Positions 2,640 through 61,000 of a stretch of DNA of 64,000 nucleotides are shown piece by piece. How positions within the stretch are numbered: the first letter of the stretch is position 1; every line of letters begins with the position of its first letter. The translations under genes were made by a program, and so were the position numbers. Source of the DNA: Pisaster brevispinus (lineage: Eukaryota; Echinodermata; Asteroidea; Forcipulatida; Asteriidae); contig JAMKCF010000003.1 in the NCBI GenBank assembly GCA_023634235.1, positions 8,568,742 through 8,632,741 of the forward strand, written 5' to 3'. The notes beneath the pieces were generated by a model. The model was given only the letters and a program-made list of their open reading frames with translations, was not told where the DNA came from and ran no database searches.

Positions 2640-4360
2640 CATTGAGCTACAGTCACCAAGTTTGGTGATGCTCGGCCTAAGCTCTGCAAAAACTATTATG
2701 CAGAGGTATAATAAAAATGATAAGATATAACCACTATAAGACAATATATTTTCTGGGTAGGATATAATGAATGTTAAACCCTATTTTTTTTATATATATA
2801 TATTTTTTTATAACCAGTCACTATCTTGTCATTTTACCCACATTCATGATCTATAGTGAATATGTTGAATACATTCCTGCAAAATCCTTATGTACTGGCT
2901 TCTTATTGGGAGTGTTTTTTCCTCATTTCTATTTTTATTGTCATCACAGTCCACTAGAATATAATCGTCCACGACATTATGCATAAGTTTGATGTATTGT
3001 TGTCGTATTAATAATTTGTTTATATTATGGCGTTGATCTATCGATCTTTTCACTCTACAGCCAGCGCATTGACAATGATAATGCTGTTTCTGTAGCTGAA
3101 AAGCACACATGCGTGTCCTGATGCGCATAATCGTCGCGCAAAGAACTCTGGGTGAAATCTGAGTCTAAGCAACACCAGCAACCATCATGGCGCTCTGATT
3201 GTAAAGCAAAGTGGTATACACAACTATAAAACCTGGCAGAGTAACTTGTAAACTACAGCTTGGCGTCCATCTTGGCAGCTTGATTTATTTTTTAACGGTA
3301 CTCGGCTCCAATAAAATGCATAGTGCGGTATATTTTTAAGATGGTGCTTGTACATAATAGACTGTTACTGGCTTCGGCAAAGGTTATGGTCGGAACGTCG
3401 AAAAGTCCTACTCTTCAATAGTGTCGTTGCAGCCAACGGCCAAAGTCGTTATAGCCAAAGTCGCTTGATTCAGACGCAGCATCATACGGGTACCAGGGAA
3501 CCAGACTATTTGTGTGTCCCTCTAACCTAGGGCTGTGCGTCCGAGTTGATGGCTTCAGCACTAGTGAATTGCTGAAAGGGTCTTTTTATTTTATTTTGCC
3601 AGCTGTTGGTCATCGTGACTTAAACTGACGAAACGCATCGCAACAAAATTCAGATGGGTCGCCAAACTATGTCAGAAGGGATAAGATTTATTGTAACACT
3701 TTTGATCATTCCATCAGGAACAAAGATTGCCTCACTATCGATCTATCTTTAAAAACATGGTAAATTTCTTTAACGGTTACTATCAGTTAAATGCTATTAC
3801 TCCTAAAAAACGTATAATAAAAACAAACTGCCTCAACAAATAATTTACTCATGTTAAGCCTGTTTTTTATGACATTACCACTCCAGCAGGGGGTTCAATC
3901 GGCTGGAGATCGACGGGTAGGTCGCAGCCGAGTGCCTTAGATATTCATTTCGCCGGCCTAAAAGTTTGCGGACCGCTGCAGCGCGCTGGTCTAAAGGAAA
4001 ACATTTGCTGCACCTTCACGAGGGCTTGTATGTTTTACGGCAATTCACTGTTTATTGGAGTTGGGTGCAGAAAGTACTGGGAGAACTTGCTGGGAGAAAC
4101 CCTCTTTACCAGTCACTATGATGGGATACTTGTAACATACTCGTACAGATCATACGAGGTAACTTAATATAACTCTAGTTTAAACTGTCTGCTTCTTGGA
4201 CTTCCATTTTAGGGTCGCTTTGTATTTCCAATTGACCTGTGTTTATTTGATCAAAACGATCTACATGTGCATACTCGCCAGCTAACTCTGATACAGTGGT
4301 ATAGCGTTTCCTCATTACGGGAATATTCGTATTTTAAACTCAACTTTCACTATTTGATCA
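2640..4360. other. Downstream intron or 3' flank of the FReD/discoidin gene; repeat debris
   Basis: 3385-3500 (GTCGAAAAGTCCTACTC, then AGCCAACGGCCAAAGTCG) resembles the inverse of 32740-32815, marking a dispersed repeat. No exon recognised. Confidence 0.45.
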
Positions 4361-4367
4361 AATCTAC

Positions 4368-4523
4368 CTACATTCTCGTCAGAATATTCAGTCTGAGAGA
4401 CATTACGGCAGCGATTGTACCACCATCCTTGCTGAGACAAGCTAGCGCAGTTTTTCTCATCTCTATCGCTGTCCTTATCGTAGGCTGAGAATGGTTGCTT
4501 GTCAGCCTTATCAAACATATCGC
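4368..4523 (-). CDS. Exon: FReD C-terminal subdomain (partial)
   Basis: After the acceptor tatgtgcacag the exon reads (G)DMFDKADKQPFSAYDKDSDR, then DEKNCASLSQQGWWYNRC. This is the FReD P-subdomain: F-S-x-YD-x-D-x-D with the calcium-binding acidic residues, NCA, and the GGWWY-x-x-C-like motif (QGWWYNRC). The usual next block (SNLNG... GI-W-W-G... MK-R) is not here. I place the donor at GTAG followed by GTAGAT (exon end 4368). A second possible donor, GCC followed by GTAATG, would end the exon at 4407. Both leave phase 1. No matching last FReD exon was recognised in positions 1-4300, so it is missing, diverged or outside the window. This exon sits 90 bases after discoidin domain B. Confidence 0.82.
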   Translation of the reverse strand, partial: AICLIRLTSNHSQPTIRTAIEMRKTALACLSKDGGTIAAVMSLRLNILTRM

Positions 4524-7500
4524 CTGTGCACATAAAAGGAGTAAATTCAATCATTTTAATATACACTATCAAATTTAGATTCATTTTGAACGTAATAAAG
4601 TTATTATGCTCACCTTTTGTGCCAAGAAGTCCAACTCTCATCACTGGAACGTCACCATCAAACTCAGTTGGGATGATTCGAATATCATGTGCTTTAATGG
4701 GTTCGTAAAAGTTGCTTTCAACTTTCTGGGATTTTTCACCTGTACCATTAAATATCTGTTGAGAGGAAATATGACAGTAGTTTGTGATACATCGTTTCGT
4801 GGTAGAAAACAAGTTCATTTACGTAATTTACAGAAATAAATATGACTAAATGTACCCCACTTTCACATTTAATTCCTACTGATTTATATTGTGTTCTCCG
4901 TTATAGTGATGGCGTACTCGATAACATTTTAACCTTATCAGGGTACGAAGCAAATTTATTCGTTCCATTACTGCTCGTGTGTAAAGGCCCTTATACTATG
5001 TTCTAGAGTAACTGAAATTTACATTCAAATTTTCCTGATCTCAAACATGGTGTGAAGTGTTTTATAATAATGCTAACAATGTCATTGTGAACTTACCTTA
5101 TCTGAACGCGGAGATGCCATAACACTTTGCCACACTGCATCGCGATCACAACACCGGTACTTCACTTGGTACTTCTTCACCCATCCCTTATTGCCTCCCC
5201 TCATAACTACACCCTGAATCTCCACCGTTTTTCCCAAGCCAAACTGAAGCCAGAGGTTTTTGTCATCAGGGGCTGGACACCATCCTTTATTCTGGCGGCT
5301 ATTCAGTCGTACATATCTGGTTAAGCAACCAAGTAAAGAGTAGTTGCCAATGCTGGATGCGTTGATGTTTTCATCTCGAAGGACTCCGTTTTCTGTTCCA
5401 ATATGATTTTCGTACGAAACTGAAAAAGAGGAACAAAGCAAGTATCAAGTTTAATCATGTTGAGAAACCTTGCACGGTTTTATTCTTTGAACCTACCGAT
5501 AAGCTAATTCTCGACAAGTGACAACAAACTTCGCGTAAACCTCGAGTTTTGATGCCATTTTAAATAGTGGACAAAAAGCATACCGATAATTTAGAACAGT
5601 TTTTTACAATTGAAACATCGCGTTCGTTCAGATGAAGCACAACAATCTGAGTATTTTTTTAGACCTATATATTTTTCTTTATCCATCACGAGGGTCAAAC
5701 AAATGCACGCTGAATAGTATGCTCACATAAAGCCTATTCTCTGAAATTTAAGTATAGTTGTTTGGTGTGTGTTTGGGGATTTCTAACCGAGAACTCTAAA
5801 TAATATAGGGATCCAGGGGTTTTGCCAGAATGAGGACGCCCTTGCAACAAAAATTATGCTTATCAGAATAAGAATACCAGCCAAAATACAATTTCACAGT
5901 GTACCACCCGTGACTCATCCTGCTCATTACTGCTTAACAGACTGTTTGAGCAGCTCTATGAAATTGGGCCCTGTATAGAGCCACTGAAGCAGAAAATATT
6001 GTTTAAATTAATTCGATTTTTTTTGCAAAAATGAGCAAGATACCAAGTCACATACGCGACATACTGTTTTGGCTATAGTAATGTAAAACTGGTCAGCATA
6101 GGCCAAATTGGCTTTGTGCTTGGCTACTTTTTGTGCTTTAAGCAACTCTATGTAGGTACCATGGTAGCTAACAAATTTACCTTTGCATCCAATGGGTACA
6201 ATACACACAGATTGACTGAGATTTCCTTCAGGTTGTATACGAACATATCGCATCTTGTTTGTCTTGCCAAACATGTTTGTGACCCCAGTGGTGTTACTCT
6301 TTAGCTTCTACGACAGAAACAGAGGCAATGGAAACCGATTTGATTAAGCATCACCCATTATACTGTTCTTTTTATCAAGTCATTATTGAATATTTTAAGA
6401 ATTTTGTATTATATTTTTTTTCATTTTGTTTTGATACATGTGTATAGGCCTAATTAACTGAGTATATGATCAAAACATGGCTGTGAAGGGTGAAACCATT
6501 GATCTCAATAAAATAGAGATCAATGGGTGAAACCAATAGATAGTATACAAATATTGACTTCTTCGATTGCATGCTATGGTTAAAACTACGACTGATCCCG
6601 AGGTGATCCCCGGAGCGTTCTATTTTCCCGAGGCGCAGCCGAGGGAAAATGGAACGGTCCGGGGATCACCTCGGGAGTCGGAGTTTTAACCATAGCACGA
6701 GTAAAAGCAGTCAATATTTGTTTTATAACACCCCCAACAGACTATTTATCATTCTCGTACACGTAACGTTCGTACGCGCATTTCAGATACATAGATGCAC
6801 AACTGATTGGGTTCGAGGTGGGTAAAAAAGACGTCTGGGTACTGCGCACGCCATGTAATAGTCGACTATTACATGGCAAACGACTATCACACGGCCGCCG
6901 GGTTTCTAGTAAAACTAAGACATATCATGTGACGCGCTCTAAACCAATGAAAAGGCAGAATTTTTGTAAGGGGCGTTATAATTCCCAATATACGCCATCT
7001 TTACGGGCAACTTGCATTTTGGCTTGCAGGCGCGTCAAGCGCTCACGTTATTAACGCAGCCGCGCTGTTTACTAACCATTCGTGCAATGAGTTTTGTGAA
7101 ATGTGCGCGTGCTGCATGCCGTTCTCCCGCGAAACGCATGACTACGGTGGCCCACAACTGCCACGGCAAAATCAAAAGAGCCACGGCAAAACCAAAAGAG
7201 CCACGACAAAACCAAAAGCGCCACGGCAAAACCAAAAGAGCCACGGCAAAACCAAAAGAGCCACGGCAAAACCAAAAGGAATCTACATTTCCACAAAATG
7301 TTCTTATAACAAGTATTGATCTTGTCTCAATGTACACAAACGTCCGTCAAACGGAAGCAATCAACAGTGTCTGCAATGCTCTCGACCAAACCACCCACCC
7401 ATCCACCCTCCAACTACATCCGCGGAGAGTTATTGGAACTGATATCGGGAAGAAATTGCTTCCATTTCGGTAAAAACTACTACCTCCAAAAAATTTGATG

Positions 7501-10500
7501 CGCCATGGGCTCAACAGCAAGCCCCGAAATCTGTGATATTATGTTCTGGAAAAACAAATCCTGGAAAAAGCTGATCTCATCCTTACTTGGTGGCGTTATA
7601 GAGACGACATACTTGTCATCGACAGCAATCTTGACAATTTCAAGAGCCTTATCCACGAAATGAATCAAATACACCCAACCCTCAAATTTACTTTTGAGGC
7701 CTCGGATACTTCTATCAACTACCTTGACTTAACAATCTTCAAAGGTAATAGGTTCAGTGAAACCGGTATTTTGGACACAAAAGTATATACCAAACCCACT
7801 GAAACCTACCAATACCTTCACAAGACATCATCACACCCCCACATGTGTTCAAAGCATTCGTATACGGTGAAACACTCCGCTATGCCAGAAACACAAATAA
7901 CGAAGATGATTTCTTACTCAAAGTCAACAACTTCTCTGAAAAGCTAATTGCAAGAGGCTTTAACAGCTCAGAGATAAACAAAATCACAAGCAAAGTATCA
8001 CACAAAGAACGGTCAAAATTGATTCACAAACAGCAGGAAACAGCGGAAAGCAAAACTCCATTGGTTTTCAGTACGGCACAACCCGTACATCAACCAAAGT
8101 GACCTAAACAAATCCATCAAACAACACTGGTCGTTAATATACAACAATGAAATACTTTTGGAGATCTTTCCAGACCCTCCCTTCATTGCGTATAGAAAAG
8201 ATCAAAACATAAGGGAAAAGTTGATCAGAGCAAAACTAAACCGGAGTCCAACCGACTCGACCCACAAACAGCTCACTCCACCCCCTGATGTTTCGGGTTT
8301 TGAAGACCCGAACGAAACACTAAAAACCCTAATCTCCCTACTGGAAGAACAGGTCACAATCCCATATACTGAAAACTCAACTCAGGATTAAAAATCCGCA
8401 TTCGGATTTATTACATTTTACCTGAACCTGAGCGGAATACAAAAATAATATGTCTCTCATGAGACAATATGAGACCTACGGATTCTATTCGAATCACCCA
8501 CACGCAACTGATGATTGCCAAGGAGGCATGGAAACATGTTATTGCTATACAGAGAGGATCTGAAAAAAATATCCTCGCGGTCTCCCCCCCCCCCCTGACA
8601 CATTTGTCAACAGTTCCTCTGGTCCTCTCTATGTTTGTCAATTACCGCGGTCAATCCGACCAAAACTACAAACAGAATACCAAGACGTAAAACATACCCA
8701 TAAAACATGTAAAGTACAACTGTACAGTTTTATGTAAATCTCGAGTCAACAGTGTTGGAGGGTCACTGAATGGGACAGTGCCATCATTTATCTATCAAAC
8801 CGTGACGCTTTTGGTTTTGCCGTGGCGCATTTGGTTTTGCCGTGGCGCTCTTGGTTTTGCCGTGGCGCTTTTGGTTTTGCCGTGGCGCTTTTGGTTTTGC
8901 GGCGTGGCTCTTTTGGTTTTGCCGTGGTGCTTTTGGTTTTGCCGTGGCGCTTTTGGTTTTGCCGTGGCGCTTTTGGTTTTGCCGTGGCGCTTTTGGTTTT
9001 GCCGTGACAGTCGTGGGCCACCGTACATGACTGTGCGTTCCAATATATTGCAATCTAGAGCAAGTTTGGGTGGCTGACTAGAGTCGATTAGACTTAACCA
9101 TAGTCGATCTAGATGTCACTCGAACGCTGCATGGTTGAACTAGCTATAGTCCAACTGGATCAACCTAGCTCCGGAGCACTGTTTCTCTAGTCAAATAACA
9201 AAGTTATGTCACTTTGTCGAGATGGCGGTTTGGTTTCGTGGCGGAGAACGTTTTTAAAACTTTTGCAATAACACAAAAAGTTGGTTTAACAATAAATGGT
9301 AGGTTTTTGCCAAAAAGATATGTCAAATACTACATTATCATTGCACTGTATTTTGCAAGTAATTGTTTTACGAGCCAATATATGCCTTGCCATATTTGAC
9401 GAATCAGTCGACAAAATGCGTTCGAGTGAACCACAGACCACGCATGCGTGATTTAATGGCAATAAATGGGTTGCACATGACGTCATTGACCGCCATCTTT
9501 GGATATGTGCACACGTGTACGCGCTGCGCACGACTCTCAGCCAATGATAGCCCATCACGCGCGAACGTTGATTCATCAACGATGACGGCCAATGCAAGGG
9601 GTCTATATTGACTAAAAGGTTAGCACCCTTGGGCAAGTTCGGGTGGGCAACTCGAGTGACTAGACTGTGTGACGTAGCTGTCGAATTGACTAGATCGACC
9701 ATGCTCCAGTGCATGGTCGATCTAATCAATCTCCCTGTGCTCTATGGTTTCTGGTAAGTCTAGTCACTCTAGCCGCCCAGCCGAACTTGCTCCTTGCTCC
9801 TATCTATATAGCCTTGTCCAAGGCTCTTTACGCAAGCACCCCGCTTTGAATTCACCAGGTAGCATAACAATACTGGCACGGCACTGCATATAGCATAGTT
9901 TTTCAACCTCGTACCAAAAAACGAAGCCGAAACAGAGCCTTGTTCCCACTGTAAACGGCAGCTTATGTTTGTCTTTATCATTGCGCAGGAATTTCAGCGC
10001 TAATTACGTATGCTGGAATCGGGTATTGAATATTCATTTCCTGTGTACTGGGCGGATAATCGTCCAATCATAAACTCTCGTAGTATTCACCTTGCCACTA
10101 TACATTAACCAATGAGCATACACCTTCGGGAAATATTAGCATAAAGCAACTCCGCCCACAATCTGACCTTTTTACAGTGAGAACAAGGCTCTGTTTCGGC
10201 CTCGTTTTTTGGTACGAGGTTGAAAAACTATGCTTCGACCCCACAGTATACTGTGTATCAAGTACTGCAGTACCGTGCCAGTATTGTTATGCTACCTGGT
10301 GAATTCAAAGCGGGGTGCTTGCGTAAAAGAGCCTTGGACAAGGCTATGGACAAGGCTACATGTGACCACCAACTGTCAAAAGTCAAGCGTTTTGCGTGAG
10401 AACGGCGTGCAGTACGCGCACATTTCACAAAACTCACTGCACGGTTGGTTAAAGCCATGGTCCCAACCCGCCATACTTGCAAAAACGTGGGCAAAATTTG

Positions 10501-13500
10501 GGGATCCGTACGTGGTGAGTACCGCCTCAGTACGGATTTGGGAGCAAGCAGACACGCCGTAGCACTTTTAGTGCACGAGGAACTTTCGCTGCGTTCGGGC
10601 TGCGGTCGGGCTACGGATTCACCCCCACGTTTTCAGAAAAACGTGGCGGCCGTGGCCTCCCCAAAAACGTACGGACTAAAAATACGCACGGTGGGTTGTG
10701 ACCGGGGCTTTAAGCGCTTGACACGCCTGCAAGCCAAAATGCAATTTGCACGCATATAGACCTTATGCACGTGACGTCATTTCAGTAGGGCGCCCTCGCC
10801 TAGACGTCAAAAGGAGGTTGTTCATTGGCCAATCCTGTGCGCCGCGCGCACAAATATGTGCGTTTCGATTGTTTCGTCACCGTTTTACCTCTAAGATGGC
10901 GGTTGAATGACGTCAATGCATAAGGTCTATACTGGAACGGTTGTAATAACACCTACATACTTAAAAAAATACATCCGTTACTAATTAGAATGTTACCATT
11001 GGTTTGTTGCAGGATCCGTTTGCAGTTATATTTTCCCACGTGATATTGTCAAAACTGTACTCCACTTGGTACTCCATTTCTTGTCCCTTTATAAATACAC
11101 CGTTCAACTGAATCTGTTTCCACTCGTCGATCCTAAGCCAAGGTTTTCCATCCTGTAAGTTTGGGCGCCACAATCCCGGTGACTCACTAGCATTACTCGA
11201 TACAGTTATTTTGAAGGCGTTGTTTTTTACTCTAGGCCAATGTTTTTTGCAGACTGAAAAAAGGAACACATAAAAGGAACTAAAACGTACTTTGAAGCGT
11301 AAAACATGACGTATATTCGCAGCAACAGTTCATTATTTTTAATATAAGAAACACAAAAAGAAAGATGCTCATTTCAATTTGATTTGAAAGAAGTGCCAAA
11401 GCGAGGGCAAGCAAGCCATTAAGCACTTTGCTTTCTTCTATATGGCATATTTGATACAAGTAGTAACTTTCGCTTATTAAAATACAAAATCGATGGAACC
11501 AGTCACAAACAGTACACATCACTTTGTATGTTGTTTGGTTTACTTGGAGCCACGAGTAGCAAAACCTGCGCATGCAGCAGATGCGCGCACGTTTGACGTA
11601 ATGACTTACCAACACGATTGACGCGTGCGACGCTTGGCGTGTGTTTCTATTTTTACGCATTGTGTGCGCACCACGCACTATTTCACTCAACGCATCTGGG
11701 CCCAATTTCATAGAGCTGCTAAGCACAAAAATTTGCTTAGCATGAAATTTCTTCCTTGATAAAAACAGGATTACCAACCAAATTTCCACGCGATTTTCAG
11801 GATAAGAAAACAACAGCTGACTACCAGTAACAAGCAATATGCAACACATGGAAATTTGGTTGGTAATCTTGTTTTTATCAAGGAAGAAATTTCATGCTAA
11901 GCAAATTTTTGTGCTTAGCAGCTCTATGAAATTGGGCCCTGGTGCTTGGACTTTTGGCCTTCTTATGTAGAGTTTGACCATAAACCATAGAGTTATATAT
12001 AGGAACTAGAGAGCGCACTAGCCTAGGTACGCGGCCCGACAAGGGCAGCGCGGCGGCCATTTCTTAAGTAGTCAAAAACAACGTCTAAACTATTTGTGCG
12101 TGTTGCAATTAACAATGAAAGGGTTTACTGTGAAATTTATGAATGCCAGTGAAGACCGTTTATAGTACTAAATAATCCCCGAATAAATATAATATTTTAG
12201 AATCTTATTCCATCACTTTGGACAATAAATCGTGATCGTGGCATGTGTGTGTTCATCCTCTACTATTGAAACAAATAACCTAAACCCCACGAAACAACTT
12301 TAATACAGCCGCTTTTTTTTAGACCGCATAATGTGTATTTAGCAAGCACACCGCGTATTCAATGTTGCCATCGTACAAAATGGCGCGCGTGTCTCCTTGC
12401 GGTCCCGTCGCGTTTGTGCACGTAGCATTACCAGTGCGCCCTCTAGTTCCTATATATAACTCTATGCCATAAACACACACTAGAAGAAAACAAACTAACT
12501 ATTGCGAGGATTTCCCACGTGCAGAGTGTAGTTTTTGCCTGAAACGCGGAATGGTTGTTTTTTGTGAGAATACTTCGTGCCATCCTCGTCTTCAAGATCC
12601 ATTCTGACCAACCACTTCTTCCGCTCGTCTTCACCGTTGGTCAGAATCCGAAGTATCTCGTTCCCGAGCCAAAACTCCCCTGTCAGGGTACCGAAGCCGT
12701 CCTTGTACTCAGCCCATGATCGATTGAAACTAAGAGTCCCGTTCATGAACCGTCTCTGGAAAACCTTATTGAGAAAGAAATGAAACCGAGAAGATATTAC
12801 TCATCCAAGCAATGTCGGAACACACTATAGCAGAGATTGTAATTACTTGAGATGCAATAAACTTGCTTTAAAATGGAAGCTAAATTCAAATAATTATTAT
12901 ACAATAAGTGGTATCTTCAAGACGGAAGTGATTTTATCTAAAAAGTAGAATAATCAATCTCAAGGTTGAATCCTGTGTTTATGAAAAACATGTGACAATG
13001 ATCACTTACAGCTTGGGACTTTACAAGCATAATTATGTATACAAATTAACTGCTGTTTCCATGAAGAAAGTTTTGAACAAAACAAAATAATGATTTTTTT
13101 TCATTTGAACGCAAAGAATTTGGTACTCTTACTTAATGTGTACATAGATGATATTTTATTTCTACTTTTGTTCAAAGAATAACATCAAAAGTTTGTTATA
13201 AGTTTTCCGTAAACATTGTTTATCTGTTTATTGTACCGTTAGGCCGATTAGTTTGTTTCTTGTAATTTTGTTTTTGTGTGTTTATTGTGTTTGTGGGTAG
13301 GGGTGTATGTTTGTTTGTTTGTATGTTTTCGTTATGATGTCTAAAGACCAGAGTTCGTGATTTCAGCGTAAAGTTGCATTGGTATTTTAAAGTAAATGAT
13401 AACCAGTGCTTCTGGATGAGTAAATTTAGTTCTGTCTTAATTTCAATAAACAAGTTGCCATATAAAAGACCCTGCAAAATTCCTTAAATCAAATTTGTCA

Positions 13501-16500
13501 CTTTCAAGAAAGCCAGAATAAGGTGTAGGCCTATATCAGGAATTACATTCAGAATAATTCCAGTGCAAGTGACCGGTCTCAAGTTTATAAAATACTCGAC
13601 AAAACATTTATTGGTTTTGTCCACATAATTACTTATGAAAACCTCGACCAAAAGGGCTAGCCTATCCTTTAAAAGGTAGTCTCTGGATTGGTGATTATAC
13701 AAAAAGAAAACAACCAAAAATCTTACTTGGTGAGAAGCACTTCAGCTTTTGATAACTATTTTTGAGAAAGGATTCCCTTTAATGTAATATAATAGTTTGA
13801 ATAAATTTCAACCCTTGAAATATTTGAGTCTGAGAAACGATTCATGCATGAATCGTTTCTGAGTTTTCTGAGGGTTGGTGTCCGTTCGCGAATGCTGTCG
13901 TTAGAGATGCGGTGTGTACCCGCTGTCACCTCGCTTAACGTAAAGAAGAACGACTTTCTTGTAAAAATACAATGACAATTGTTTGCTGTTCTCTCAGCAA
14001 GATAGACACTGTATCTAGCTGAAACTTTCACATCTGATGAATGTTATTGTATCTGTCTTGATAATTTTGTCTGTAAGTATAAATCAGCATAACCTTGACA
14101 AAAACAAATATATGACCCTACCATTAAGACTAACAGTTACAGAAAGTAATGATACTAGAAATGACTTACAATCCAGCCTCTTTGAGTTCCCATTTTGCAA
14201 TACACTCGCAAGCCACCCGTATACTGCGGTGGGTAAATGGTGTAAACACCACTGGAGTTGTAACCAGCTTGCATTTTAGCCTGACAGTCACCTGGGAATG
14301 AAAATGTACAAAACAATACAGTGCGCAGTTCTGGTAACTTTATCTAACCATTATTGAATTTTAATTAGAAGCCTATTGCCGTTTCCCTTTTTAATGAAAA
14401 GCTGTTTACAGTGAACTTCAATCAGAAGACTTCAATCAGAAATAGCGCTTCGAACTACTTAAATTTTGAGATTATATAGTTCAAGGAAGGACCAAGCCAG
14501 CCGCGCTGCCATGTCAGCGCTCCGTATCGATACCTCTCGTCACAGCCTCACTACCATGGGCAGCGCGCCGTAATCGATACCTCTCGTTACCATTAATAGT
14601 CTCTATTATGAGCAAGTTCGGGTGGCTGACTAGAGTCGACTAGACTTAACCATAGTCAATCTAGATGTCACTCGAACGCTGCATGGTTGAACTAGCTAGT
14701 CCAACTGGGTCATAAATGAATAATATTTTTACACGGTCACCCTAAACTGCATACAGTTAGACATATCCCAAGATCAAAGAACATTGAGAGGGGACCAGTC
14801 ATCCTCGTTCCCAGGGGTGATCGATCTCGCCGCGCAATTTTTTCCCAAGCGTGCCTTGCTCGATCAAAATGGGCTAGAATCTAGCACATTTTAATTAGGC
14901 CTGAGGCCGATCCATTCTAACAATAACGCGCGCGCTCAAGTATGGTAACCCATAAAAGAGGCATCAAGTCAAAAAGCAACTGGTCCTCTGTCATTCTTCT
15001 TTGATTTTCGCTATGTCTAACTGTATGCAGTTTAGGTTGACCGTGTAAAAACATGATTCATTTGAAATGGAATCGCGTCAAAATACTTGCACTTTCACAC
15101 GCGCGTACTAAGCGTCCTACAAGCGCTATACATGCGTTCGAAAGTTTTTAACAAGCGTGCACGCAAAGTAGTCACCATTGGGAGCCAATCAGCGTTGTTT
15201 CTCAGTACATCCCTTCCAGGGGTTAGTGACGAGATAGGTATCGATACGGCGCGCTGCCCATGGTAGAGAGGCTGACTTGATGCCTCTTTTGCGGTTAACC
15301 ACACATGAGCGGGCACGTAGAGTGGATCAGCCACAAGCCTAATTAAAATGTGCTAGATTCTGGTACATTTTAATTAACCAGTTCCAGGGGTTATGAGCGA
15401 GCAAGGCATGCTGGGGAAAAATGGCGCGGCGAGATCGATCACCCCTGAGAACGAGGCTTGGACCAAGCGACAATCAGCTCAAAATATACACGCCACTTTG
15501 TTTATTTCTTAGAGTTATGTATAGGAACTAGAGGGTGCACCAACAAGGGCAGCGGTGGCCATTTCGTAAGTAGTCAAAAACAATTCAACATGTTGTCTAA
15601 ATTATTAGTGCGTGTTACAACAGAGCAATGGTTAACAATGAAAGGGTTTACTGTGAAATTTATGAATGCCAGTGAAGACCGTTTGAAGTGTTATATTATA
15701 ATCCCCAAATAAATTTAATATTTTATAATTATATTATACAGAGTCCGGGAAGGGACAGTGGAAGACAAAAAAATATGCAGGGGCTAATTCCTTCGTACGG
15801 TTAAGTAATCCGTTCGAACGAATTAATGATCCGTTCGCACGGTTTAGTAATCCGTTCGAACGAATTAGTAATTCGTTCGATTGGATAACTAAACCGTACG
15901 AACGAATTAGCCCCTACACATTTTGCTTCCGCTGTCTTTTCCCGGGCTTCGTATATTTATCAAGCAAACCGCTTATTTCGTATTCAATGTTGCCCTCGTA
16001 CAAAATGGCGCGCGTGTCTCCTTGCGGTCCCGTCGCGTTTGTGCACGTAGCATTACCAGTGCGCCCTCTAGTTCCTATATAACTCTATGGTTAATTTTTT
16101 TAATATTCCTGCGTGCAAGATATGACCGCGTACGACATTCTCGAGCGTATACTGGGTAGGTTATAAATTTTAGTCATATTTGAATGTCATCATTTACGAG
16201 TATAGAGTTTCAAGTCGTAGTTTATATTTTACCATGGCACTTGAAGTAGTCGCGTAAGACCTCTTGGTTGTCCGTGAAGATTGGATGGTCCGTGTAGTAT
16301 GGTTGAAACGCCCTCTTTGGGATGACCATGTACACGCCCCCTGGTCTGGTCTCCGAGCATGAGCAAAGATCCTGTCGCTCAAGAGGTAGCACCCAGCGGA
16401 GCTTGCCCCGCTGGTCTGGATCCGGTTCTTGTACAAAATAGCACAGCCTCCCCGAAACACACCATAGATTGGCTTTTAAGGAAAGAAACATTACTTATAA

Positions 16501-58582: not shown

Positions 58583-60511
58583 TTAAGGATGGATCTGTTG
58601 CAATGTTGCAATCACAGGATGCTGTAATGCCTTGGTACAGTACATATTCACAACATCTTGTTGCAAAAACCGCTGACGTAACGGCTGGATCAGCCCAGAG
58701 TTTAGATCTGCCCCAAATGGAAAGTCCCTAAATGCCTCATAAATGACTCGAAATGGACGCTGCTTATCATTGTGGTATACGCCCCTGTTACCATGAATTA
58801 CCGCCACACCCTCTTTGGTTATGCGATGGCAATTCAGTGAATACATACAGTGATCAGGACGAATGTTCCACTCACATGGGTAGACGTACACCAACTCCGG
58901 GTGAAAATGAAACAATATATTGATTAGGTCCTGGTCCCCCCAAGTGATTTTAGTTTTGTACTCTCTGTAGATTGGTAGGATCTTTGCAGACCATCCGAAT
59001 GCACGCATCCTCGTTAAGTTCATCAGCATGACGCCTGAGTTAAGTCCTGTGGCACCGTGGTAGGGATGCCTTGCGAAGCGGTTATACCAACCAATGCTGG
59101 TCACTTCATGCTCAGGGGTCAGCGCTGCCAGCTGTGTAGAATTGAACTTTTGGAAAAAACTCCAAATGTGTTGCAATGGCTTGATGAACAAAATGTCGGT
59201 GTCCACATACAGAAGAGCATCCGTGTCAGTCAAGAGGTCTGGTAGAAATAATCTCTGCGTGGCACACTTTTTAAACATTTTCTTCCACTCTTCAAAGTTT
59301 TCACCCGGAGGGAAAGAAATGCTGTGAATGTCAAAAGAAATTCTGCTCTGGAAGGGGGCAGGCCATGATTTGATCCGGCCAGCGATGTTTACTTGTAGTT
59401 GGTCCTCAGCAAAAATGTGAAAGTGCAACGGCAAGGGGGTTGTTATTGCTGCAGATTTGAGCATGACTAATGCTTCATCGGTTCTGTCTCCACATACTAC
59501 TACTGCTATCACCATCTTTCCTTTGACGTTTGGTGCTATGTCACTACCTTGATTATTAATATTTTGAGGGGCAGCAAGCGGGGGTTGTTGTTGCCCCTTG
59601 AAAGCAGGAGGGTGCACACCTTTTGCTGGGGCAAACGGTTGATGCTGGGGTTGATTTGCTTTTGCATTCTGCTGAATATTAACAGCAGGGGGGTGAACTT
59701 CCTGATGCACAGCTTGATGCTTCGCCATTTGAATAACTGCTTTGTTTTCAACTGGCACTGGTGCCTGTTGATTGAAATGGTGTTGCTGTTGAACTTTGTT
59801 TTCAACTGGCACTGGTGCCTGTTGATTGAAATGGTGTTGCTGTTGAACTTTGTTTTCAACTGGCACTGGTGCCTGTGGATTGAAATGTTGTTGCTGTTGA
59901 TTTGGCTGGTTGACATTGTGATTTATCCGACTGTTTTCTTGCAGGGCAGGCGAACCATCATGCATCACTTTAGCAGTAGGCTGTAGACGAATCGGTGCAT
60001 CAAAACCTTTTCGGTGTATAATTTCATGGTGATTATCGCTATCAGTGTTTCCATTTTGGAGGGCGTCACCTTTCAAATGTGAGGCTGCAGGAGACTCGTG
60101 CTTGACATTATGACCATTCACACTCAACTGGTGACCTCCTTTGGGACTATCTTTGTTTACAGTTTCAACATCAGATTTTTTGTTACTGTCAGCAAAACTG
60201 TCTGAACTCCCAATTACCTTTTCCCCAGCCGCTTTATCTTGAAGCACTGGATGCAGTTGCTGCTTTAAATGTAAAGGCTCCCGCAAATGGCCTCCCCTAT
60301 CACCATCACCCATGATGACATTCCTGGATTCAGGTGCCACACGAACTCCGAGAGTGTGGTTGTGACTGGTGGCTGCTTCATAGTAAAATCCACACATCAT
60401 TCCTAAACTGAAGACCGAAACCACAAATATGATGTACAGGAGTTTGCTACACCGGCGACCCCGCATGATGACTGCACTGTGGTAGCACTCACTGCTACAT
60501 TCAGTAGACAC
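58583..60511 (-). CDS. GXYLT: Glucoside xylosyltransferase-type GT8 glycosyltransferase, intact, single exon, 642 aa
   Basis: GXYLT enzymes add xylose from UDP-xylose to O-linked glucose on EGF repeats of proteins such as Notch, in the secretory pathway. The start at 60511 gives a 22-residue cytoplasmic tail and one membrane anchor at about residues 23-44 (YIIFVVSVFSLGMMCGF), so a type II protein. A second Met at residue 16 (60466), before RGRR, is an equally good start. Residues 45-330 are a long polar stem rich in Gln, His, Asn and Pro, with three 18-residue repeats at 205-258. The GT8 domain spans about 332-640: MVIAVVVCGDR, FHIFAEDQLQ, EWKKMFKKCATQRLFLP, the metal-binding DTD at 437-439 in LLYVDTDILF, IGWYNRFARHPY, LNSGV at 490-494, WGDQDLIN at 524-531 and HGNRGVYH at 573-580. 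All the key motifs I looked for are present. The segment between LNSGVMLMN and WGDQD looks shorter than in vertebrate GXYLT1. That gene is multi-exon, so this copy is either a retrogene or has lost its introns. Confidence 0.93.
   Translation of the reverse strand: MSTECSSECYHSAVIMRGRRCSKLLYIIFVVSVFSLGMMCGFYYEAATSHNHTLGVRVAPESRNVIMGDGDRGGHLREPLHLKQQLHPVLQDKAAGEKVIGSSDSFADSNKKSDVETVNKDSPKGGHQLSVNGHNVKHESPAASHLKGDALQNGNTDSDNHHEIIHRKGFDAPIRLQPTAKVMHDGSPALQENSRINHNVNQPNQQQQHFNPQAPVPVENKVQQQHHFNQQAPVPVENKVQQQHHFNQQAPVPVENKAVIQMAKHQAVHQEVHPPAVNIQQNAKANQPQHQPFAPAKGVHPPAFKGQQQPPLAAPQNINNQGSDIAPNVKGKMVIAVVVCGDRTDEALVMLKSAAITTPLPLHFHIFAEDQLQVNIAGRIKSWPAPFQSRISFDIHSISFPPGENFEEWKKMFKKCATQRLFLPDLLTDTDALLYVDTDILFIKPLQHIWSFFQKFNSTQLAALTPEHEVTSIGWYNRFARHPYHGATGLNSGVMLMNLTRMRAFGWSAKILPIYREYKTKITWGDQDLINILFHFHPELVYVYPCEWNIRPDHCMYSLNCHRITKEGVAVIHGNRGVYHNDKQRPFRVIYEAFRDFPFGADLNSGLIQPLRQRFLQQDVVNMYCTKALQHPVIATLQQIHP
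59741..59902 (-). repeat. Three 54-bp tandem repeats coding 18 residues each within the GXYLT stem
   Basis: Units lie at 59741-59794, 59795-59848 and 59849-59902. Each encodes a version of QQQHHFNQQAPVPVENKV. The first two units in plus order are almost identical in DNA, which implies recent duplication or gene conversion. The third differs by a few bases and gives NPQ in place of NQQ. The length is a multiple of three, so copy-number change keeps the reading frame. Confidence 0.95.
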
Positions 60512-61000
60512 TTGTCAGATGAGAAAACTCCAACACTTGTTACTAGCTTGCGTCATGGAAGCCAACTGCCAGCAGTAATGCGTCCTCATCAAACGAGAGT
60601 TACGGTACATATGTATTGTACATACATGTACACCAACACTGCACTGCCATCAATATTGAGTGGTTTGCCGCTGTAAAGCTACCGGATTGCCTGTCGACCT
60701 GACACGTTTACAATAATGTCCTTCAGGGGGATTGGTTCCCCCTATTCATCACACAAAATCGAACTCGGCATTACTTTTAGCCATCCATCCGTAAACATTC
60801 TGATCTCACGTGTGAGAGATAGATAAATACAGCTCACCGTGTGGTGTTACATGAGGAAATGACTGCGGGGCGGGCGCGCAGGGGCAGTGAAAAAATGTAT
60901 GAGATCGTAACGGAGATCAGATTTACCGCCCTCTGTTGACGGATCAGAGCTTTTCCGCACCGGATAATGTACAGACCCGTAGACTATTAAAAACTTAAGA
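60512..61000 (-). promoter_or_regulatory. Probable GXYLT 5' UTR and promoter region
   Basis: This stretch lies upstream of the GXYLT start. It holds a CACGTG E-box within TCTCACGTGTGAGAG near 60807-60821 and a short GC-rich block (GGGGCGGGCGCGCAGGGGC) near 60867-60885, the only one in the neighbourhood. No TATA box is evident. The transcription start cannot be fixed. The assignment rests on position and base composition. Confidence 0.35.

Follow-up and report, generated by a model that had tools for sequence, protein, structure and literature searches.

A probable recognition-protein gene of the starfish Pisaster brevispinus with two discoidin domains nested in a split fibrinogen-related domain

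A 64,000-nucleotide stretch of the Pisaster brevispinus genome (the window; contig C3, 8568742-8632741) carries on its minus strand a fibrinogen-related domain (FReD) whose two halves are separated by two discoidin domains. It is very probable that this locus is one gene of an expanded family, in which a cysteine-rich N-terminal module (N-module) precedes a FReD that discoidin cassettes divide at an ancestral phase-1 intron, and which encodes what is probably a secreted recognition protein. The same layout was found in paralogues across the genome (549.7 Mb in 512 contigs searched) and in predicted proteins of other echinoderms, and below we examine the gene model, its relatives, the rival explanations and the possible history of the insertion.

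Results

A FReD interrupted by discoidin exons

Seven minus-strand exons, running from 14291 to 4315, encode in this order the FReD N-half, discoidin A, discoidin B and the FReD C-half, and an eighth exon lies upstream of them. The features are as follows, with E-values from the family hidden Markov models (HMMs) described below.

16233..16491, minus: N-module exon, cysteine-rich, CYFVQEPDPDQRGKLRW...YFKCHG; phase-1 donor, in-frame join to FReD exon 1
14291-14170, minus: FReD exon 1; first cysteine pair; HMM E 1.9e-13
12764-12500, minus: FReD exon 2; phase-1 end after LHVGNPRN; HMM E 6.2e-29
11253-10997, minus: discoidin A, first half; phase 1-0; HMM E 1.1e-7
6307-6181, minus: discoidin A, second half; phase 0-1, divergent; HMM E 0.076
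5419-5097, minus: discoidin B, first half; phase 1-0; HMM E 9e-18
4755-4614, minus: discoidin B, second half; phase 0-1; HMM E 4.3e-9
4523-4315, minus: FReD exon 3; C-terminal part, DKDSDRD and second cysteine pair; HMM E 6e-13

Spliced in genomic order, the seven exons form a single open frame of 480 codons that ends in a TAA stop at 4315, with AG at 7/7 acceptors and GT at 6/6 internal donors. Adding the N-module exon lengthens the frame to 552 codons in eight exons, free of stops and frameshifts and with GT/AG junctions. The 5' limit of this exon is uncertain: its conserved part starts at 16446, and an in-frame ATG lies at 16491. The original prediction, made from the DNA letters of this stretch, had proposed the exon phases, and these are borne out: FReD exon 2 ends and FReD exon 3 starts in phase 1, and the discoidins are 1-0/0-1 pairs. 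Its start for the FReD C exon (4523) also holds, but the exon reaches 4315 and not 4368. The second half of discoidin A was accepted despite its weak HMM match because its position, its phases and its VTNMF..RYVRIQP..IGCK pattern fit; it is 40% identical (E 6e-4) to the exon of the neighbouring paralogue.

In the nested order the protein matches Fibrinogen_C (PF00147; E 1.8e-38, 133 bits) and F5_F8_type_C (PF00754; E 8.8e-27, 94.2 bits) in the Pfam database, each in two stretches. The FReD is thus not continuous, being interrupted by about 282 residues, and the discoidins sit between FReD exons 2 and 3, not outside a whole FReD as in a tandem-type layout. Removal of both cassettes yields a single continuous Fibrinogen_C match (E 3.5e-40, 138.6 bits), in line with the earlier proposal that a direct join of exons 2 and 3 gives a near-normal FReD. 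Each half contributes one cysteine pair (DC..VYC in exon 1, NCA..WWYNRC in exon 3; the bonds are predicted from sequence), and the C-half has FSAYDKDSDRD, which fits FSxxDxDxD, presumably the calcium-site aspartate motif of FReDs.

Family FReD and discoidin HMMs, made from relatives with the window rows excluded, were run on the 2909 open reading frames (ORFs), 15 aa or longer, that a six-frame translation of the 64 kb yields. With E-values up to 1 allowed, matches were confined to the ORFs of the seven exons, each to its expected domain part, and no further FReD or discoidin exon was found among these ORFs. Nothing was therefore found to complete either FReD half separately; extra FReD exons of that kind were among the evidence that the original prediction had named as able to overturn it. 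For the plus strand and the remaining frames, coverage is by these FReD and discoidin HMMs only and not by the whole of Pfam; Pfam itself (stops written as X) matched one FReD exon and one discoidin exon in one minus-strand frame of 4.8-19.8 kb, and gave no match in two of the three minus-strand frames of 16.2-31.2 kb.

The locus might alternatively consist of two or three genes side by side on the same strand, one for half a FReD, one for the discoidins and what remains of a C-half. Read-through of FReD exon 2 meets a stop at once, one intron is 4.7 kb long, and many predicted sea-cucumber proteins and a few vertebrate ones have a FReD that is cut at about this point, as this explanation would have it. 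However, a compact paralogue and annotated starfish and brittle-star proteins have the same order and phases, on which grounds, with no search made for separate promoters or start exons of a discoidin gene, we rejected separate genes as highly improbable.

Three of the gene's introns measure 1.2, 1.4 and 4.7 kb, and the 4.7-kb one is rich in repeats. By eye, palindromic repeats resembling miniature inverted-repeat transposable elements are seen in intron stretches at ~11930-11680, 10300-9800, 9000-8800 and 7290-7180, together with a short tandem repeat (AAAACCAAAAGCGCCACGGC-like) and an inverted copy of it.

Paralogues in the same genome

The closest N-module paralogue is the adjacent gene, 1.1 kb outside the window on the side of its first letter. 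This paralogue (C3:8567614-8565298) contains within 2.3 kb an N-module, FReD exons 1 and 2, one discoidin a/b pair and FReD exon 3; its FReD and discoidin exons are confirmed by the family HMMs, and its split is in phase 1, like that of the window gene. Three further genes on C3, at 4.66, 4.69 and 4.74 Mb, share this order and contain one discoidin each, and at C20:212116-200162 an N-module and FReD exons 1 and 2 are followed by four a/b discoidin pairs and FReD exon 3, colinear with the Asterias amurensis protein P0002 (exon identities 57-86%; about 42-64% for the fourth discoidin, which is partial in P0002). Paralogous exons reach up to 84% and 89% identity to Asterias.

Discoidin exons lie upstream (same strand, within 25 kb) of 29 of the 66 matches to the family C-terminal exon: one discoidin at 15 of these loci, four at 13 and five at 1, with none at the remaining 37. 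This count comes from match lists, of which 37/130 N-module, 72/119 discoidin and all 66 C-exon matches were used; the discoidin matches left out are on contigs without a C-exon match, save one on C4 that is 2.9 Mb away. The window's own C exon is outside the 66, five of the 29 loci were mapped exon by exon, and several C20 loci look duplicated, so that the C20 copies may include duplicated haplotypes. On C20, at 0.007-0.21 and 2.06-3.12 Mb, several four-discoidin loci occur in equal-score pairs, whose members face the same way in some cases and opposite ways in others, representing either segmental duplication or a haplotype artefact of the assembly.

An unnested paralogue (C3:20359583-20363900) has a phase-1 intron between FReD exons 2 and 3 at the equivalent place, and the discoidin HMM found no discoidin in its 227 ORFs; judged from its sequence, this intron is an empty insertion site. 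The genome holds at least 158 FReD matches, the best of them nearly full-length in one open frame, with many clustered on C1, C3, C11, C13, C16 and C22.

The N-module exon has 130 matches in the genome, its own included, and by eye resembles the N-termini of the asteroid FReD proteins P0001, P0002, P0006 and P0008. Between the window gene and its neighbour (16233-16446 versus C3:8567405-8567611), synonymous divergence (dS) of the N-module is 0.41, as against 1.53 for FReD exon 1 and saturation in FReD exons 2 and 3; that the N-module is so much closer suggests gene conversion or exon exchange. In Acanthaster planci, P0226 has an N-module-like start followed by discoidins, with no FReD match, and the N-module itself thus seems mobile between architectures.

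Homologues in other species

We define the echinoderm nested FReD family as FReD exons 1 and 2, one or more discoidin a/b pairs and FReD exon 3, with phase 1 at the split and, here, an N-module upstream; the window gene has this order, these phases and the N-module. Protein searches listed 120 of 556 and 120 of 664 matches, together 223 different proteins, and are not exhaustive, as P0028 and P0011, which formed part of the second query, are absent from its listed matches. The top matches listed for the window protein are from starfish.

Scanning the 223 listed homologues with the FReD and discoidin HMMs revealed both domains in 20, of which 16 are nested and 4 have the discoidin before a whole FReD. 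The 16 nested proteins among those listed, all of them predicted models from public annotation, are all echinoderm and consist of a FReD N part, 1, 2 or 4 discoidin matches and a FReD C part, the last discoidin match being partial in several. They come from Asterias amurensis (P0002-P0005, P0007, P0009, P0011, P0015, P0017) and A. rubens (P0008, P0012), whose proteins have 1, 2 or 4 discoidins, and from Patiria miniata (P0028) and the brittle star Amphiura filiformis (P0034, P0122, P0126, P0128), with 1 discoidin each. A further search added P0225 (A. amurensis), which is nested, and P0227 (Patiria), with a FReD N part and a partial discoidin. The original prediction had suggested seeking the same exon order in related genomes. 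The order was found in the adjacent paralogue and four other mapped genes of this genome and in 16 of the 223 listed proteins, and this recurrence argues against a chance juxtaposition.

That prediction had also stated that it knew of no described protein with this nesting. Database entries do exist, as uncharacterized, "lactadherin-like" or "coagulation factor VIII-like" proteins; for the nesting itself, we found no description in the open-access literature as judged at the level of search results. The nested combination is thus present in databases without a name, while FReD, discoidin and domain insertion are each known.

In many predicted proteins of Holothuria and Apostichopus, among them P0155, P0125 and P0056, the N part of a FReD breaks off close to the split point of the nested family; different sequence comes next, and then another FReD. 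A few vertebrate models resemble them.

A possible though less favoured alternative is that the cassettes are optional and that alternative splicing yields a plain FReD besides nested products carrying one discoidin or two. Each cassette is symmetric (1-1) and frame-neutral, and the join that skips both matches Fibrinogen_C without a break. In addition, the two discoidins of A. rubens P0012, labelled isoform X2, pair with cassettes 3 and 4 of the four-discoidin A. amurensis P0004. However, isoform labels are names of gene models, and cassette number also differs between genes through genomic copy number.

Predicted structure and proposed working

The preferred reading in the original prediction, in which two discoidins occupy a loop of the FReD, gains support from the order and split in the paralogues and the 16 listed homologues. 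In the predicted structure of a one-discoidin Asterias homologue, the FReD halves pack into one FReD and the discoidin is looped out. A Foldseek search with the predicted model likewise listed FReD structures, with poor gapped rmsd (4.5-15 A). By comparison with fibrinogen gamma structures, the insertion presumably lies near the B/P subdomain boundary, and such a position would explain why it is tolerated.

We propose that symmetric 1-1 discoidin modules entered an old FReD intron by exon shuffling and would then have multiplied by tandem duplication. The FReD would serve as a frame carrying looped-out discoidins in a secreted protein, and ligands would be bound through the discoidins and, in copies with the pocket segment, through the FReD, most plausibly in a lectin for non-self or surface recognition. 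In the four-discoidin P0002 the calcium-site run is altered (SIHHHTDNNQHD), suggesting that in this protein the discoidins have taken over binding.

State of the window copy

Several points weigh against this picture. The structure was predicted for a one-discoidin Asterias homologue and not for the spliced product of the window gene, and the model of the two-discoidin P0012 was poor (mean pLDDT 49.9), which confines the support for reassembly to the one-discoidin case. Secretion and ligand binding are properties that we infer, and a signal-peptide exon, sought on the minus strand at 16.2-45 kb, yielded four weak candidates, none convincing. The window copy is also the most divergent nested row (end branches of 0.87 for the FReD, 2.41 and 2.06 for the discoidins), its FReD C half is without some 20 residues (SNLNGxY..GIxW), and synonymous divergence from the neighbour is saturated in FReD exons 2 and 3; taken together, these could reflect relaxed constraint.

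The missing residues include NLNGxY..GIxW, which we take to be the pocket-side segment of FReDs; among 8 other aligned rows it is full in 4 and partial in 4. Discoidins A and B of the window are the longest branches in the discoidin tree. Discoidin domains typically have cysteines at both ends; the terminal cysteines are present in discoidin A and both gone from discoidin B. By eye, their joint loss from discoidin B (5419-4614) fits the pairwise abandonment of a disulphide.

The main rival to a coding copy is accordingly a decaying one, a member of the nested family under relaxed constraint or pseudogenizing, with no functional product. Its long branches, shortened FReD C half, missing cysteines of discoidin B and large introns, the longest with many repeats, all point this way. 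On the other hand, 552 codons are open over eight exons with GT/AG junctions throughout, the calcium-site aspartates survive together with the two FReD cysteine pairs, and the dN/dS ratio against the neighbour is 0.26 for the N-module, 0.28 for FReD exon 1 (not computable for FReD exons 2 and 3 owing to saturation) and 0.23 pooled, a value that averages both lineages and omits the discoidins. We consider decay improbable, and the window gene is most likely a derived yet still-coding copy.

Origin of the nesting

For the FReD-core tree the discoidins were cut out and 20 nested rows were combined with 58 chosen other rows (P0009 left out); the discoidin tree was made without P0003, P0009, P0017 and matches under about 110 model positions. 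Both are quick trees that carry a long-branch warning, and the sub-group tests were picked after the tree was seen.

The nested FReD cores do not form a clade (3 changes), and a single origin of nesting, with the 20 nested cores as one clade against the 58 others, was rejected (approximately unbiased test, p = 1.2e-54). With the same cores, a grouping of asteriid and Patiria nested rows was rejected (p = 7.6e-8) and one of asteriid and Amphiura nested rows weakly so (p = 0.014), while the asteriid nested rows alone make up one side of a branch (support 83, unstarred). Patiria P0028 pairs with the plain Patiria P0024 (support 100), and the N-termini of the two are similar. In the discoidin tree, the inserted Amphiura discoidins group, with weak support, with Amphiura lactadherin-like discoidins, and the inserted Patiria discoidin is closest to Acanthaster discoidins. 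Against repeated insertion, a grouping of asteroid and nested Amphiura discoidins was not rejected (p = 0.18); the other rejections in the discoidin tree treat unnested Acanthaster rows as outsiders and do not make a clean test.

These results make at least two insertions likely and three plausible; alternatively, one old insertion followed by many losses, or gene conversion, may account for the pattern. We give roughly even chances to a wider scenario in which discoidin cassettes entered this FReD intron on at least two separate occasions, perhaps three (in asteriids, Patiria and Amphiura), which would make the discontinuous FReD a recurrent architecture. With 1-5 tandem copies, up to ~30 loci in this genome and frame-neutral splicing, the outcome would be a tunable recognition family in which the FReD frame stays constant and the looped-out discoidins vary.

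Elsewhere in the window, at 58583-60514 on the minus strand, lies an open frame of 643 aa with a Glyco_transf_8 match (PF01501, E 1.5e-15).

Discussion

FReDs are central recognition domains, found in ficolins, fibrinogen, angiopoietins and snail FREPs, and are usually regarded as indivisible. If a natural family indeed accommodates whole discoidins in one FReD loop, it would reveal where the fold can be split. If our reading is correct, the nested family would also show how, in nature, domains can be inserted repeatedly at one ancestral intron, and would add candidate immune lectins of echinoderms that are now annotated as uncharacterized, lactadherin-like or coagulation factor VIII-like.

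Compared with known systems, ficolins, FIBCD1 and angiopoietin-type proteins (4m7f, 2j0g, 6y41) share with the window gene the FReD fold, two cysteine pairs and the calcium-site aspartates, but their FReD is continuous and they have no discoidin. Lactadherin/EDIL3-like proteins (Acanthaster P0224 and P0226; Amphiura P0134-P0141) are alike in their discoidins, and have no FReD match. Both domain families occur in one chain in amphioxus P0088 and P0123 and in Amphiura P0142 and P0144, where, unlike in the window gene, the discoidins precede an uninterrupted FReD. The closest likeness is to the nested proteins of Asterias, Patiria and Amphiura (P0002, P0004, P0008, P0012, P0028, P0034 and others), whose FReD is split by discoidins at the same place. 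From these the window copy differs by its two highly diverged discoidins and its shortened FReD C half, with 36% identity to P0002 over 87% of the query. The N-termini of the Amphiura nested members differ from the N-module type, whereas Asterias P0002 and P0008 have the N-module too, like the window gene.

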